Of a DNA stretch of 64,000 bases, positions 51,190 to 57,568 are shown piece by piece. Below the pieces are notes generated by a model. It was not told the DNA's origin, searched no databases, and saw only the letters and a list, made by a program, of their open reading frames with translations. A program made the position numbers and the translations under genes. The stretch is from Flavobacteriales bacterium (GTDB taxonomy: Bacteria; Bacteroidota; Bacteroidia; Flavobacteriales_G; Salibacteraceae): contig JABJJW010000011.1 in the NCBI GenBank assembly GCA_018660685.1, positions 1 to 64,000 on the forward strand, in the 5' to 3' direction. The stretch's first letter is position 1; each line of letters starts with the position of its first letter.

Positions 51190-52746
51190 ATGAGATACCT
51201 TTCACTAATATGCATGATCCTGCTTTTCAGCGGATTGCAAGCACAAAATTTAAACCTTGAAGTCAAAGGGAAACAGCTATTCAATGAGGAACTCAGTGAC
51301 GTCTGGGGGTACGCTGATGAAGATGGCAATGAGTATGCTTTGGTGGGCCGTAATTTCGGCTTAGGGATCTACGATGTAACTGATCCAGATAACATTTCCC
51401 AAACCTTTGTTGTTCCTGGTCCTTATAGTACTTGGAGAGATCTTAAGACGTGGGGAGATTATCTCTACGTCACTTGTGAGAGTGGACCTGGTTTGTTGAT
51501 TGTGGACATGAGCGGTTTGCCAGATAATACCAATCTTCCGTACACCTATTTTAATGGAGATACAATGACATTTCAAAGTGCTCATAATCTCTTCATTGAC
51601 GAAAATGGCTTCGCATACATTTTCGGAGCTAACTATTCAATGGGTGGAGCCATTATTCTTGATTTGAATGATGATCCTATGGATCCGGAGCCAGTTGGGA
51701 TCTACGATCTAAACTATTACCATGATGGCGTGGTCAGAGGAGATACACTGTGGGGCTCGGCAGTTTACACTGGTGATGCTCAAGTGGTTGATGTGAGTGA
51801 TAAAGCCAACCCAGAACTGCTTTCTTCTTGGAAAACACCGGGCGTATTTACCCACAACATGTGGTTTTCAGACGACAACAACTTTGTGTTCAGCACAGAC
51901 GAAATCTATAACGGAACCATCGCTGCATACGATGTATCTGATATTTACAATCCAACGCTGGTAGATGAGTGGAAGGTGAACGATACGAACATCATCCCGC
52001 ACAATACTCACTACATTAATGGATATCTAGTGACTTCCTACTATACAAAAGGACTGAACATCATTGATGTAAGTCGTCCTCATAATATGATTGAAACCGG
52101 GAGGTATGATACTTCTCCATTGTATAACTACGAAGGTTTTCATGGCAACTGGGGTGTCTACCCATGGCTACCATCAGGGAATATTCTGGCAACAGACATT
52201 GAAACAGGCCTTTATGTTTTTGAGCCCACGTATGTACGCGGCTGTTTCCTTGAAGGAGCCGTCACCGATCAACATACTGGCGACATCATCTTTTTCCCTA
52301 CCATCAATGTGATAGAGGATACGCTCATCGTAGATGGTGATATTCTTGGAGAATATGCAACCGCCACAATGAATGCCGGAACATACACCGTAGAAGTTTC
52401 TGCAGAAGGATACTTTTCTAAAACTATCAGTGGTGTTGTGCTTGTCAATGGTGAACTCACTGAATTGGATGTTGAGTTGAGCAATTGGCCAGCTGATGTA
52501 GAGGAGAAGGTGAAAGAAGAGGGAGTTGCCCTTTATCCGAACCCAGCTTCAACGATCTTCTCTGTGAAGACGACCGACATCATCGAGTCCATTGAGCTTA
52601 TTTCAATTGATGGAAAGCTCATCCAGCCCAAAGTCAACTACCTAAGCTCAAAAGCTGTAGATGTCTCCAACCTTTCATCGGGAGTCTATACGTTGAAAGT
52701 CAGTATTGAGGGACGTGAAATCACTCGGATGGTTTCTATTCTTTAG
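51190..52746 (+). CDS. Choice-of-anchor-B family T9SS protein
   Basis: A signal peptide (MRYLSLICMILLFSGLQAQ) is followed by LVIVD-type propeller repeats at residues 35-340, such as DVWGYADEDGNEYALVGRN and GLGIYDVTDPDNI. A carboxypeptidase regulatory-like domain follows (GAVTDQHTGDIIFF ... AGTYTVEVSAEGYF). The end is a type A sorting domain (VALYPNPASTIFSVKT ... GVYTLKVSI). The architecture is known from marine Bacteroidota and other bacteria, but its biochemical role is not. It should be surface-attached or released. It follows parC by 32 bases. TTTCTTTG at 51164-51171, one mismatch from the -7 consensus, could be its own promoter. Confidence 0.88.
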   Translation: MRYLSLICMILLFSGLQAQNLNLEVKGKQLFNEELSDVWGYADEDGNEYALVGRNFGLGIYDVTDPDNISQTFVVPGPYSTWRDLKTWGDYLYVTCESGPGLLIVDMSGLPDNTNLPYTYFNGDTMTFQSAHNLFIDENGFAYIFGANYSMGGAIILDLNDDPMDPEPVGIYDLNYYHDGVVRGDTLWGSAVYTGDAQVVDVSDKANPELLSSWKTPGVFTHNMWFSDDNNFVFSTDEIYNGTIAAYDVSDIYNPTLVDEWKVNDTNIIPHNTHYINGYLVTSYYTKGLNIIDVSRPHNMIETGRYDTSPLYNYEGFHGNWGVYPWLPSGNILATDIETGLYVFEPTYVRGCFLEGAVTDQHTGDIIFFPTINVIEDTLIVDGDILGEYATATMNAGTYTVEVSAEGYFSKTISGVVLVNGELTELDVELSNWPADVEEKVKEEGVALYPNPASTIFSVKTTDIIESIELISIDGKLIQPKVNYLSSKAVDVSNLSSGVYTLKVSIEGREITRMVSIL

Positions 52747-52804: not shown

Positions 52805-54481
52805 ATGCAAGAAGTAGATTGTTTCATAGCGTTTGAGAGTGATGTATCCAGGGTGGAGCTGCCATCGAAGTTCACATTTCCCTTTTACTATGAACCACAC
52901 GAACTGAGCTTGAAAGCGACGGAGGAACTTCAACGACACATTGTCAAACAAGAATGGAACCGTGACTTTGGTATTGGGGAGGACGAAGGCAATGCCGTCG
53001 GAATTATGTTCGGCGTTTTGGTAGTCAAAAATCATGAAGGACATCTGGGTTATCTAGCGGCATTCTCTGGTAAACTTGCTGGCTCTAATCACCATGACCG
53101 TTTTGTTCCTCCCGTTTACGACATTTTGACCCATGATGGCTTCTTCCGACAAGAAGAGAAGCATATTGAGCGACTCACAGCCGAGATTGAATTGCTTGAA
53201 GAAGCGCCAGAATTGTGGAAGAGGAGAGACGAATTCGAGAGCCAATCGAAGCAAAGCGAGTCTGAACTTACGGAAGCTAGAAATAAGATAAAGGTTGGAA
53301 AGCGAGACCGGAAAAACCAACGGGAAACGGCAAAAGCAGAATTAGCACCAGAAGCTTATGGACAGCTCGAAGCTGCTTTGGTCAAGGAAAGTTTAGACGA
53401 TCAATTTGACTTCAAACGCCTGGCGAAGAAATGGAGGAGTGATTTGAGTAAGTCCAAGGAAGATCTAGATGCGCTCCTCAATGCGATAAGAGATCTGAAG
53501 AAGGAGCGTAAGTATAGTTCTGCTAGCACTCAGGCCAATATGTTTAATCACTATCAATTCCTCAATCAAAGTGGTGAGTCAAAATCTTTGCTTTCAATTT
53601 TCGATCACACAGAGTCCAAAATTCCTCCGGCTGGGGCTGGGGAATGTGCAGCGCCAAAACTGTTGCAGTATGCTTACTTAAATAAGCTAAAACCTATAGC
53701 CATGGCGGAATTCTGGTGGGGAAAATCTCCGAGTTCGGAGATCAGAAAACACAAACAGTTCTATCCTTCATGTCGTGGCAAGTGCGAACCGATTTTAGGA
53801 CATATGTTAGAAGGGTTGGATGTTGAGCCGAATGAAATGCTGAGCAACCTGAAAGACGAAAAGGAGTTGGACATCATTTTCGAGGATGAACATTTGGTGG
53901 CCGTGAATAAGCCAGCGGAGTTTTTATCTGTTCCTGGCAAGGAAATCGAAGACTCAGTCTATACCAGAGTCAAAGAGAAATACCCTGATGCCGATGGGCC
54001 TCTGGTTGTTCATCGATTGGATATGAGCACTTCAGGGGTCATGTTGTTAGCGAAGAGCAAAGACGTTCATAAGGCTATTCAGCATCAATTTGAGCAACGA
54101 ACGATCAAGAAGCGCTATGTAGCCTTGCTACGTGGAGAACTAACCGAGAAGCGCGGCGAGATCAATTTGCCACTTCGCGTTGATTTTCATGACCGTCCTA
54201 GGCAATTGGTTTGTCACGAACATGGGAAGCCAGCTCGCACCGTATGGGAGTTAGTAGAAACTATAGATGGTCAATCATTAGTGCGCTTCTACCCAATCAC
54301 CGGAAGGACTCACCAACTCCGAGTACATGCGGCTCACGCCGATGGATTAAATACACCAATTCTAGGCGACGATTTGTATGGGACTAAAGCCGATCGCTTG
54401 CATTTGCATGCCGAGCAATTGCGATTTATTCATCCTATTAGTTTGGAAGAAGTGACTTTGAAGGTTCCGGCGCCATTTTAA
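52805..54481 (+). CDS. RluA-family pseudouridine synthase with large N-terminal domain
   Basis: The C-terminal ~230 residues are a pseudouridine synthase: EDEHLVAVNKPAEFLSVPG, then VVHRLDMSTSGVMLLAKS with catalytic Asp406, and FYPITGRTHQLRVHAA. It should isomerise uridines in rRNA or tRNA. The first ~340 residues are not the usual short S4 domain. They contain a globular part, a coiled-coil (about 115-240) and a Cys-containing module with GAGECAAPKLL (Cys281) and FYPSCRGKCEPIL (Cys323, Cys327). Proteins with this layout occur elsewhere, as far as I recall, but the N-terminal function is unclear. It has its own start after a 58-base gap. Confidence 0.9.
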   Translation: MQEVDCFIAFESDVSRVELPSKFTFPFYYEPHELSLKATEELQRHIVKQEWNRDFGIGEDEGNAVGIMFGVLVVKNHEGHLGYLAAFSGKLAGSNHHDRFVPPVYDILTHDGFFRQEEKHIERLTAEIELLEEAPELWKRRDEFESQSKQSESELTEARNKIKVGKRDRKNQRETAKAELAPEAYGQLEAALVKESLDDQFDFKRLAKKWRSDLSKSKEDLDALLNAIRDLKKERKYSSASTQANMFNHYQFLNQSGESKSLLSIFDHTESKIPPAGAGECAAPKLLQYAYLNKLKPIAMAEFWWGKSPSSEIRKHKQFYPSCRGKCEPILGHMLEGLDVEPNEMLSNLKDEKELDIIFEDEHLVAVNKPAEFLSVPGKEIEDSVYTRVKEKYPDADGPLVVHRLDMSTSGVMLLAKSKDVHKAIQHQFEQRTIKKRYVALLRGELTEKRGEINLPLRVDFHDRPRQLVCHEHGKPARTVWELVETIDGQSLVRFYPITGRTHQLRVHAAHADGLNTPILGDDLYGTKADRLHLHAEQLRFIHPISLEEVTLKVPAPF

Positions 54482-54935: not shown

Positions 54936-54969
54936 ACTGCATATTGCGGTTTATTTCCGCTTTTATAAG

Positions 54970-55043
54970 CGGTCCGGACGAGACTCGAACTCGCGACCTC
55001 CTGCGTGACAGGCAGGCATTCTAACCAACTGAACTACCGGACC
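54970..55043 (-). tRNA. tRNA-Asp (anticodon GTC)
   Basis: The minus strand folds as a cloverleaf of 74 bases. The acceptor stem is GGTCCGG with CCGGACC and discriminator G. The anticodon stem-loop is CCTGC-CTGTCAC-GCAGG with anticodon GTC, and the T-arm is GCGAG-TTCGAGT-CTCGT. The T-stem has one G.U pair. CCA is not encoded after the discriminator (the next bases are CTT), so the CCA-adding enzyme at 12 kb would be needed. Confidence 0.97.
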
Positions 55044-55157: not shown

Positions 55158-55754
55158 GTGCAACATATTCAAGAATCATTGGCCTCCGATCCCATTCTTT
55201 TTGAAGTCATGTCGCGCATTCCATTGCGTCCCGCTCAGCCAAATCCTGACGTGTATTTCACATTGCTCAAATCGATTGTTGAACAGCAACTTAGCTTAAA
55301 GGCGGCAGACACCATTTGGAATCGATTCCTCGACAAGTTTGAGGACTATCCCCACCCACAAGATGTAGTTGAAATAGAGACGGAACTGATGCGAAGCTGT
55401 GGTCTTTCATTTCAAAAGGCTGGATACATGCAAAACATTGCGCGCTTTGCCATTGAAAATGATTTGAGCGACGCCTTCATTGCTTCGCTGGATGATGAGG
55501 CAGCAGAGAAACATCTATGTCAGATCAAAGGGGTAGGGAAGTGGACCGCCGAAATGATCCTGATGTTTTCTCTAGGGCGGGAAGACGTTTTTCCCGTTGG
55601 TGATCTCGCAGTCCGAGCTGCCATGATAAAACTGTACGATGTCAAAAGCGAGAAGAAGCAGCTGTTCGTTGATTTAGAATCGATTGCCGATCAATGGCGT
55701 CCGTACAGGAGCTATGGAACTAGACTCATGTGGGATTGGTATTTGAGTCGATAA
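55158..55754 (+). CDS. HhH-GPD DNA glycosylase (AlkA/3-methyladenine type)
   Basis: The 198-residue protein removes damaged bases from DNA. The helix-hairpin-helix is LCQIKGVGKWTAEMILMFSL, and the catalytic Asp follows in VFPVGDLAVRAAM, as in AlkA-type glycosylases. The N-terminal half has LLKSIVEQQLSLKAADTIW, another AlkA-like segment. There are no iron-sulfur cysteines, which separates it from Nth and MutY. The start appears to be GTG at 55158. No alkylation-response regulator is next to it. Substrate range is inferred from the family. Confidence 0.9.
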   Translation: MQHIQESLASDPILFEVMSRIPLRPAQPNPDVYFTLLKSIVEQQLSLKAADTIWNRFLDKFEDYPHPQDVVEIETELMRSCGLSFQKAGYMQNIARFAIENDLSDAFIASLDDEAAEKHLCQIKGVGKWTAEMILMFSLGREDVFPVGDLAVRAAMIKLYDVKSEKKQLFVDLESIADQWRPYRSYGTRLMWDWYLSR

Positions 55755-55834: not shown

Positions 55835-57568
55835 ATGCACCAATCTCTACGCAAGCTTTCATTGTTCTCAGCCGCATTTGCGCTGATGGCATTCGGTACT
55901 CTACAAGCCCAATTTAGCGGCATCTATGCTCCATCAAATTGGACCGTGACACAAGTGGCAGGCGGTAATGGATCTGTTAATTCCAACAGTGCACCTACGA
56001 GTATTGCTCTTACAGGTCCTGACAACGTTACTGCAAATGCCTATACGCGTTATGAGATTGACGTCATTGCTCCCGGAACGATAAGTTTTGATTGGAGTGT
56101 TAACCACAATGATCCGACCTACGATGGATTTGGGTATTGGCTCAATAACACATACACAGAATTAGCTAACACTACAACAAGTGGATCCTCGACCGTACCT
56201 GTTACAGCTGGCCAAACCTTTGCTTTCTATGGTCATACTTATGACGGATGTTGTGGGACTTTTACTTCAACGATCACAAATTTCTCTGGACCGTCTTTTT
56301 CAGCACCGAACGACGCTGGAATATCCTCTCTGAATACACCGGTTGAAGGTTTTTGTGCGGACACAATTCCGATTTCTGTCACGGTCAAGAACTACGGGTC
56401 AAATCAAATCTCGCCCGTGACCATTGAATGGACGCTGAATGGAACTGCTCAAACACCATTCACATATACCGGTACTCTTGATACTAATGGAGGTTCAGGG
56501 GCAGATTCGGCTATTCTGATCATTGACAACGTTTATTTAGAAGATTCCAATGACATAGTACTTTGGACAACAGATCCAAATAATGCAACAGACACGGTCA
56601 ATCATAATGACTCTGCTTCGTTGTCATTCTACGCGGCACACCCTGAGATTGACCTTGGCGATACAAGCATGTGTGAAGGTCTAATCATGATTCTAAATGC
56701 TGGATCTGGTTGGGACGAATACCTATGGAGCGATAGTTCAGTGTTCCAGCAACTCCTTGTAACCTCTGGCGGTACTTTTTCAGTCACCGTCACAGACGAA
56801 TATGGATGTGAAGCTTCCGATGAAGTTATTGTGACCGAAGTCCCGCTTCCTGTCGTTAGTTTGGGAGATTCGATTGAAGCCTGCGATATCTTGGTCTTAG
56901 ACGCAGGGAACGCTGGTTCCACATTTAACTGGAATACATTCGAGAATACTCAGACAATTACGGTGACACAATCAGGAAACTATTCATGTTTGGTAATAAA
57001 CACTGCAGGTTGCGTTGGTCAAGGTGAAGTAGAAGTTACAATTCATGAATCTCCTTCAATCAACTTGGGCAGCGACTTCGAGTTGTGCGTGGACTTGAAC
57101 GAAACAGACACTCTGGGTGTTAGCGGCAGTTATGCAATGTATGCTTGGAGCAACGGCGACACCTCTAGTACTGTGCTTGTGGGCGGAACCGGAACTTCTA
57201 CCGGAACCGTTGAGTATGTATTAACAGCGACTGATGCGAATGGCTGTAGCGACGAAGACACAATTGAGGTGAAGTTTAAAAATTGTATTCCACAAGGGTT
57301 AACCGAAGTTGAATTAGGCATACAAACCACCGTGTATCCAAACCCTACAACCGGCGTAACTCAAATAAAAATTGTTGGTAGCTCTCAATCTGAGCTGGGT
57401 ATCTCACTTGTTGATTTAACCGGAAGAAGAGTTCAGAATGTATATCAAGGAGCAACCCCAGGAATACTTCAATTCGAAGTTGATTTCACGAGAATCACAA
57501 GTGGTATGTATTTTCTGCTTACGAATAATGGAGCCGCCGTTGAATCGATTCCCATCATCATCGAGTAG
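55835..57568 (+). CDS. Secreted Ig-like-repeat protein with T9SS type A sorting domain
   Basis: A signal peptide (LSLFSAAFALMAFGTLQAQ) leads into a beta-sandwich (about 30-145, with FSGIYAPSNWTVTQ and FAFYGHTYDGCCGTF). A CARDB-like domain follows (NDAGISSLNTPVEGFCADTI ... YGSNQISPVTIEWTLNG). Next come three Ig-like repeats with the GSG.DEYLWSDSS-type pattern (ILNAGSGWDEYLWSDSS, LDAGNAGSTFNWNTF, GSYAMYAWSNGD). The end is a type A domain (TTVYPNPTTGVTQIKI ... SGMYFLLTNNG). It is likely a surface protein or adhesin of unknown ligand, related in style to the broken gene at 34-35.6 kb. Confidence 0.88.
   Translation: MHQSLRKLSLFSAAFALMAFGTLQAQFSGIYAPSNWTVTQVAGGNGSVNSNSAPTSIALTGPDNVTANAYTRYEIDVIAPGTISFDWSVNHNDPTYDGFGYWLNNTYTELANTTTSGSSTVPVTAGQTFAFYGHTYDGCCGTFTSTITNFSGPSFSAPNDAGISSLNTPVEGFCADTIPISVTVKNYGSNQISPVTIEWTLNGTAQTPFTYTGTLDTNGGSGADSAILIIDNVYLEDSNDIVLWTTDPNNATDTVNHNDSASLSFYAAHPEIDLGDTSMCEGLIMILNAGSGWDEYLWSDSSVFQQLLVTSGGTFSVTVTDEYGCEASDEVIVTEVPLPVVSLGDSIEACDILVLDAGNAGSTFNWNTFENTQTITVTQSGNYSCLVINTAGCVGQGEVEVTIHESPSINLGSDFELCVDLNETDTLGVSGSYAMYAWSNGDTSSTVLVGGTGTSTGTVEYVLTATDANGCSDEDTIEVKFKNCIPQGLTEVELGIQTTVYPNPTTGVTQIKIVGSSQSELGISLVDLTGRRVQNVYQGATPGILQFEVDFTRITSGMYFLLTNNGAAVESIPIIIE

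Follow-up and report, generated by a model that had tools for sequence, protein, structure and literature searches.

A probable homologue of the tRNA base editor TrcP encoded by a Flavobacteriales bacterium

Introduction

What is the function of the first ~340 residues of a protein that ends in an RluA-type pseudouridine synthase domain? The question is raised by a 558-residue open reading frame (52805-54481, forward strand, stop codon included) in the window, the 64,000-nucleotide stretch of contig JABJJW010000011.1 from a Flavobacteriales bacterium (assembly GCA_018660685.1) that was analysed here. A preliminary description, made from the sequence, had called this region an unexplained domain with a cysteine motif, and had suggested that it could bind zinc, might be related to deaminases and might supply a second RNA- or nucleotide-modifying activity. 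The comparisons reported below indicate that the protein is very probably a homologue of TrcP, the VCA0104 product of Vibrio cholerae (Kimura et al. 2022, PMC9553926, cited throughout from excerpts of its text), and as such a two-step tRNA base editor that most likely acts on tRNA-Tyr. The domain is thus no longer unexplained, as the N-terminal half matches the deaminase half of TrcP, and homology to that characterised enzyme supports the suggested zinc-binding, deaminase-like character.

TrcP carries out two successive reactions, deamination of C32 of tRNA-Tyr by its N-terminal half followed by conversion of U32 to pseudouridine by its RluA domain (PMC9553926). This class of enzyme has been known since 2022, and the window protein is a further member of a rarely annotated family.

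Domain organization of the protein

The identity of the C-terminal domain, residues 351-558 (53855-54478, forward strand), is firm. Pfam model PF00849 covers residues 363-511 with an E value of 1.9e-31, and in the AlphaFold2 model VIA placed residues 348-558 on Escherichia coli RluA (2i82) with a Z score of 29.8, an rmsd of 1.4 over 205 residues, and 47% identity. E. coli RluA shares this fold and differs from the window protein in having no deaminase half. The RluA-type NCBIfam models match the same C-terminal part, each scoring below its cut-off; NF007543, the E. coli-type RluA equivalog, spans only residues 351-558 and reaches 175.8 bits against a curated cut-off of 286. In an alignment of 81 sequences, consisting of the window protein and the best 80 of at least 587 matching places in genome contigs, the HRLD motif (H403-D406) is identical in every member, and its aspartate D406 (54020-54022) is presumably the catalytic residue, by its role in the RluA family.

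The N-terminal half is a different matter for sequence databases. Residues 1-355 gave no S4 match in Pfam or NCBIfam, in agreement with the preliminary description, and the matches they did give in those two libraries were weak (best E 0.077) and lay mostly in a helical stretch; against PDB sequences there was nothing at an E value of 10 or better. Searches of Pfam, NCBIfam, PADLOC, and PDB sequences with alignments of the N-terminal half and of the cysteine module found no convincing match, the weak ones again falling mostly on the helical stretch (best Pfam E 0.0021, to Prefoldin, in 2 of 24 members; PADLOC E 0.0015). The protein has five cysteines, at positions 6, 281, 323, 327, and 470, and the module in question comprises the motifs GAGECAAPKLL, starting at residue 277, and FYPSCRGKCEPIL, starting at residue 319. 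The earlier placement of C281 (53645-53647), C323 (53771-53773), and C327 (53783-53785) is correct, and their C-x41-C-x3-C spacing is exact.

The AlphaFold2 model, built from the window protein and its 80 homologues, has a mean pLDDT of 92.1 and a pTM of 0.82, and in it the N-terminal half reads as one domain broken by a helical insertion. The first part of this deaminase-like domain, residues 1-112 (52805-53140), contains a helix at 33-48 and strands at 67-75 and 81-87. Long helices at 113-132, 135-179, and 182-249 then make up the insertion (residues 113-249; 53141-53551), a likely tRNA-holding arm. The second part, residues 250-339 (53552-53821), bears the cysteine module, with a helix at 282-292 directly after C281, a strand at 296-305 that carries E302 (53708-53710), and a helix at 327-334 starting from C327, after which the RluA fold begins. 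Because the helices at ~113-249 split the domain, the cysteine module is only its second part; neither these helices nor the invariant E302 had been remarked on in the preliminary description.

Structure searches with the whole model returned pseudouridine synthases and helical or coiled-coil proteins, and no deaminase is among the 50 matches listed by either Foldseek or VIA. Since RluA and helical matches crowd these lists, the absence of deaminases from them says nothing about the domain. The structure search of the TrcP authors likewise yielded mostly helical proteins until the helical domain was removed (PMC9553926). The fold comparison that had been proposed for residues 240-345 was run with residues 230-348, whose isolated model has a mean pLDDT of 83.7 but has lost the central strand 296-305. 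With this strand-lacking model, Foldseek gave ten matches (best E 5.4), none of them a deaminase, and VIA gave none at Z >= 2.

The surroundings of the gene in the window consist of an LVIVD-repeat protein with a secretion sorting tail (51190-52746), a tRNA-Asp gene on the reverse strand (54969-55043), an HhH-GPD DNA glycosylase (55158-55754), and a second sorting-tail protein (55835-57568). None of these four neighbours has an evident tie to the editor.

Correspondence with TrcP

The three-part layout of the window protein is that of TrcP, in which a deaminase domain (CDA, residues 1-114 and 250-339) is interrupted by a long helical domain (LHL, 115-249) and followed by a pseudouridine synthase domain (PUS, 351-570) (PMC9553926). 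The borders agree closely, with helices at 113-249 against the LHL at 115-249, and an RluA fold at 348-558 against the PUS at 351-570. Furthermore, C281, E302, C323, and C327 correspond to C282, E303, C324, and C328 of TrcP, the last three at the same offsets of 21, 42, and 46 from the first cysteine and the whole set one position earlier. Whole-chain comparison was made with a collinear homologue from Vibrio campbellii, V. cholerae TrcP itself being compared through its published positions; the V. campbellii protein has C282, E303, C324, and C328 in TrcP numbering, and its alignment with the window protein, 554 columns long, shows 49% identity.

The preliminary description had proposed conservation of the cysteines as a check on its suggestion, and conservation proved complete. 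C281, E302, C323, and C327 are identical in 81/81 full-length homologues, as are G279, P284, F303, W305, G306, H316, and Y320, and the three cysteines are also invariant in all 24 members of an N-terminal alignment drawn from whole-genome matches, the window protein included. Such invariance in both sets means that the cysteine motif is not due to chance, and the conserved Cys/Glu set is, judged by its sequence, an active-site pattern.

The resemblance to TrcP extends to genomic context, as the window's genome has both a tRNA-Tyr gene encoding C32 and a gene for MiaB (score 453 bits, cut-off 355.3). The two proteins differ in the phylum of their hosts, in length (570 residues for TrcP and 558 here), and in the basic patch of the insertion, whose counterparts are partly matched. 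In a straight register, two of the six patch residues that were mutated in TrcP (R168, R171, K172, R175, K201, and K208) meet a basic residue in the window protein (R167 and K170), whereas K172, R175, K201, and K208 fall on N171, E174, Q200, and A207. A shift of one residue would put R171 and R175 of TrcP on R169 and R173 of the basic stretch at 53309-53323, which are conserved in 81/81 and 80/81 homologues, respectively.

Proposed reaction and tRNA substrate

A reaction scheme for the window protein can be drawn by analogy with V. cholerae TrcP, from which zinc binding, deamination, the order of the steps, the choice of tRNA, and the role of the insertion are all taken. The long helical insertion (113-249) would hold the body of the tRNA. 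In the split N-terminal domain, C281, C323, and C327 would coordinate zinc, and E302 would act together with water to deaminate C32 in the anticodon loop, giving U32. The RluA domain at the C terminus would next receive the loop and isomerise U32 to pseudouridine. The likeliest substrate is tRNA-Tyr; its gene in the window's genome encodes C32.

The tRNA genes of this genome are in keeping with such a scheme. Of 34 tRNA matches above the family cut-off, 30 loci were read (L158-L187), representing 30 distinct tRNA sequences. The anticodon arm of tRNA-Tyr reads ACAGA-CTGTAAA-TCTGT, with C32 present, and contains the AGAC of the V. cholerae fragment described in PMC9553926. In V. cholerae cells without MiaA or MiaB no editing was seen, and in vitro an excess of TrcP was able to edit without the methylthio group (PMC9553926).

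The loop of tRNA-Tyr has close parallels, however, and an editor of TrcP type might have other or additional targets, namely C32 of the Phe, Trp, Cys, Leu-TAA, and Ser-TGA tRNAs. Together with tRNA-Tyr, these make up the 6 of the 30 distinct tRNAs that combine C32 with A36-A37-A38, the loop common to all six being C32-U33-N-N-A36-A37-A38; the Leu-CAA tRNA of the same genome has A36-A37-A38 with T32. Two observations speak against these further targets and make them unlikely: the excerpts of PMC12588516 report that no TrcP substrate beyond tRNA-Tyr was found in V. cholerae, and Phe and Trp genes with C32 are listed just as well for relatives that lack TrcP. The latter result comes from a search of 60 relatives with two fixed patterns for class I tRNAs with A36-A37-A38 (in the window's genome, Phe and Trp), in which the tRNA type was judged by eye and part of the tally made by hand among the matches listed, and in which a genome "without TrcP" is one with no match at E 1e-60, some such genomes being incomplete.

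Among the matches listed, C32 in tRNA-Phe occurred in 13 of the 17 genomes with TrcP and in 25 without (38 in all), and C32 in tRNA-Trp in 10 with TrcP and 18 without (28 in all). The T32 forms listed were one Trp-like match in the TrcP-bearing genome G059 and two Phe-like matches in G014, which is without TrcP and also has a C32 copy. There is consequently no support, among the matches listed for these 60 relatives, for C32 in Phe or Trp genes tracking the presence of TrcP, and because C32 is equally listed in relatives without the gene, its presence in these two tRNAs appears independent of the editor. A C32 that is tolerated thanks to TrcP would be expected to track TrcP; among the matches listed it does not, and with no further substrate found in V. 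cholerae, tRNA-Tyr was chosen as the likely substrate. A wider conjecture, that the TrcP of this lineage edits C32 to pseudouridine in several tRNAs (Tyr, Phe, Trp, Cys, Leu-TAA, and Ser-TGA), that RNA editing is thus an ordinary way for Bacteroidota with TrcP to obtain pseudouridine 32, and that the short forms without the insertion (see below) are relatives recognising RNA differently, is regarded as doubtful.

Catalytic and metal-binding residues

Yeast Rib2, which also has a deaminase and a pseudouridine synthase on one chain, has the two domains in reversed order, and its deaminase is of the classical riboflavin-pathway type. Rib2 had been offered as the precedent for the window protein. 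The useful precedent is TrcP, and a Rib2-like fusion was put low, as the window protein has no match to a Rib2-type deaminase in Pfam.

With classical zinc-dependent cytidine deaminases the window protein has three cysteines and a glutamate in common; it differs from them in giving no sequence match and in carrying its glutamate on a strand (E302) and not after the first cysteine. In the classical enzymes, a glutamate lies two residues after the first zinc-ligand cysteine, whereas position 283 of the window alignment is alanine in 74 and threonine in 7 of the 81 homologues, and glutamate in none. This absence, and that of a match to any deaminase family in Pfam or NCBIfam, would suit an N-terminal half that lost deaminase activity or never had it, and that acts as a zinc-stabilised RNA-binding module steering the RluA domain. 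Such a role is nevertheless very improbable, as E302 is invariant, its counterpart in TrcP is needed for C-to-U editing, and the purified N-terminal half of TrcP, which shares the motif, by itself fully converts C32 of tRNA-Tyr to U (PMC9553926). Substitution of C282, C324, or C328 of TrcP abolishes editing and E303 is critical, while a mutant of the PUS domain halts the reaction at U (PMC9553926). By Dali, with the helices removed, the N-terminal globular domain of TrcP resembles both blasticidin-S deaminase and cytidine deaminase (PMC9553926).

In the preferred reading of a catalytic, TrcP-like deaminase half, C281, C323, and C327 are predicted zinc ligands and E302 the predicted catalytic glutamate. 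Protein families with three-cysteine iron-sulfur clusters exist. That the three invariant cysteines, which would suit such a cluster, hold one here in place of zinc is scarcely credible, given that acid denaturation of TrcP freed 27.9 uM zinc from 49 uM protein, that the oxygen in its reaction comes from water, and that the requirement of V. cholerae editing for iron is attributed to MiaB (PMC9553926).

Distribution and variant forms

A 2025 survey refers to trcP as so far reported to be Vibrio-specific (PMC12588516), whereas the TrcP paper counts 4567 homologous sequences from 959 species, with Bacteroides named among them, and states that the aligned homologues carry both halves (PMC9553926). 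The full protein is present in 17/60 relatives (E 1e-60, own genome counted), including a homologue 71% identical over the protein in G004, of the same genus, and the N-terminal half in 14/296 genomes sampled from the phylum (own genome counted). The cysteine-module alignment has matches in 21/395 genomes of the window's phylum and in 39/398 genomes sampled from the phylum of a Vibrio, the centre genome being counted in each case. The open frames that contain the 21 matches in the window's phylum are 535-597 residues long, and 42 of the 43 matches in the Vibrio phylum sit in frames of 548-659, the remaining one (G593) being in a frame of 364. Because nearly all matches sit in such long frames, the module is as a rule fused to a partner about as long as RluA. 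A tree of 84 proteins, made by a quick method and with 5 rows ungrouped, has the Bacteroidota and Pseudomonadota rows on opposite sides of a starred branch; as each phylum forms one side, this sample shows no recent exchange between them.

The annotated records of TrcP type encountered in this analysis bear only the names 'RluA family pseudouridine synthase' or 'pseudouridine synthase', and no model in Pfam or NCBIfam covers the deaminase half. With names that refer to RluA alone and no such model, C-to-pseudouridine editing is invisible in this annotation. Since cultured Bacteroidota, among them Flavobacterium suncheonense and a Sphingobacterium, carry a TrcP-type gene, targets outside Vibrio are directly testable.

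Rare short forms without the insertion were found on two plasmid records, and in both the three cysteines and the glutamate are retained. The first, on Desulfobaculum bizertense plasmid NZ_CP090010.1, is a 220-residue protein (L114:5668-6330, forward strand) with all four catalytic residues, and a separate RluA-family gene (L114:6337-7008, forward strand) lies 6 bases downstream; going by their sequences, the two genes are a split, minimal TrcP-like pair. This arrangement sits oddly with V. cholerae, where the halves of TrcP, as separate proteins, fail to complete the reaction (PMC9553926). The second form, on Persicobacter psychrovividus pPP1 (NZ_AP025293.1), is a protein of ~243 residues from a chosen start (L154:3842-4570, forward strand), with no RluA-like frame seen by eye among the three open reading frames of >=100 residues that overlap L154:3000-6000; the plasmid record also carries a full-length copy at another place (L155:3917-5647). 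The literature search, which was aimed at other subjects, turned up no paper on the short forms.

Two TrcP-like genes per genome were observed in G026, G031, G354, G423, G539, and G609; in the last four, of which G354 is a Vibrio genome, the second copy is clearly more divergent. Two-copy genomes could hold two editors with different targets. Three scans of viral contigs found no relative. A 9 kb 'Bacteriophage sp.' record without annotation, obtained from human faeces (MT836693.1:2325-3293), matches 96% of the N-terminal-half query at 45%, and was not accepted as a phage gene, as it may be bacterial DNA.

In Porphyromonas gingivalis, PG1236-PG1238 include an RluA-family synthase gene and a hemerythrin-domain protein in one operon that belongs to the iron stimulon (PMC10434189). 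TrcP editing in V. cholerae is iron-dependent (PMC9553926).
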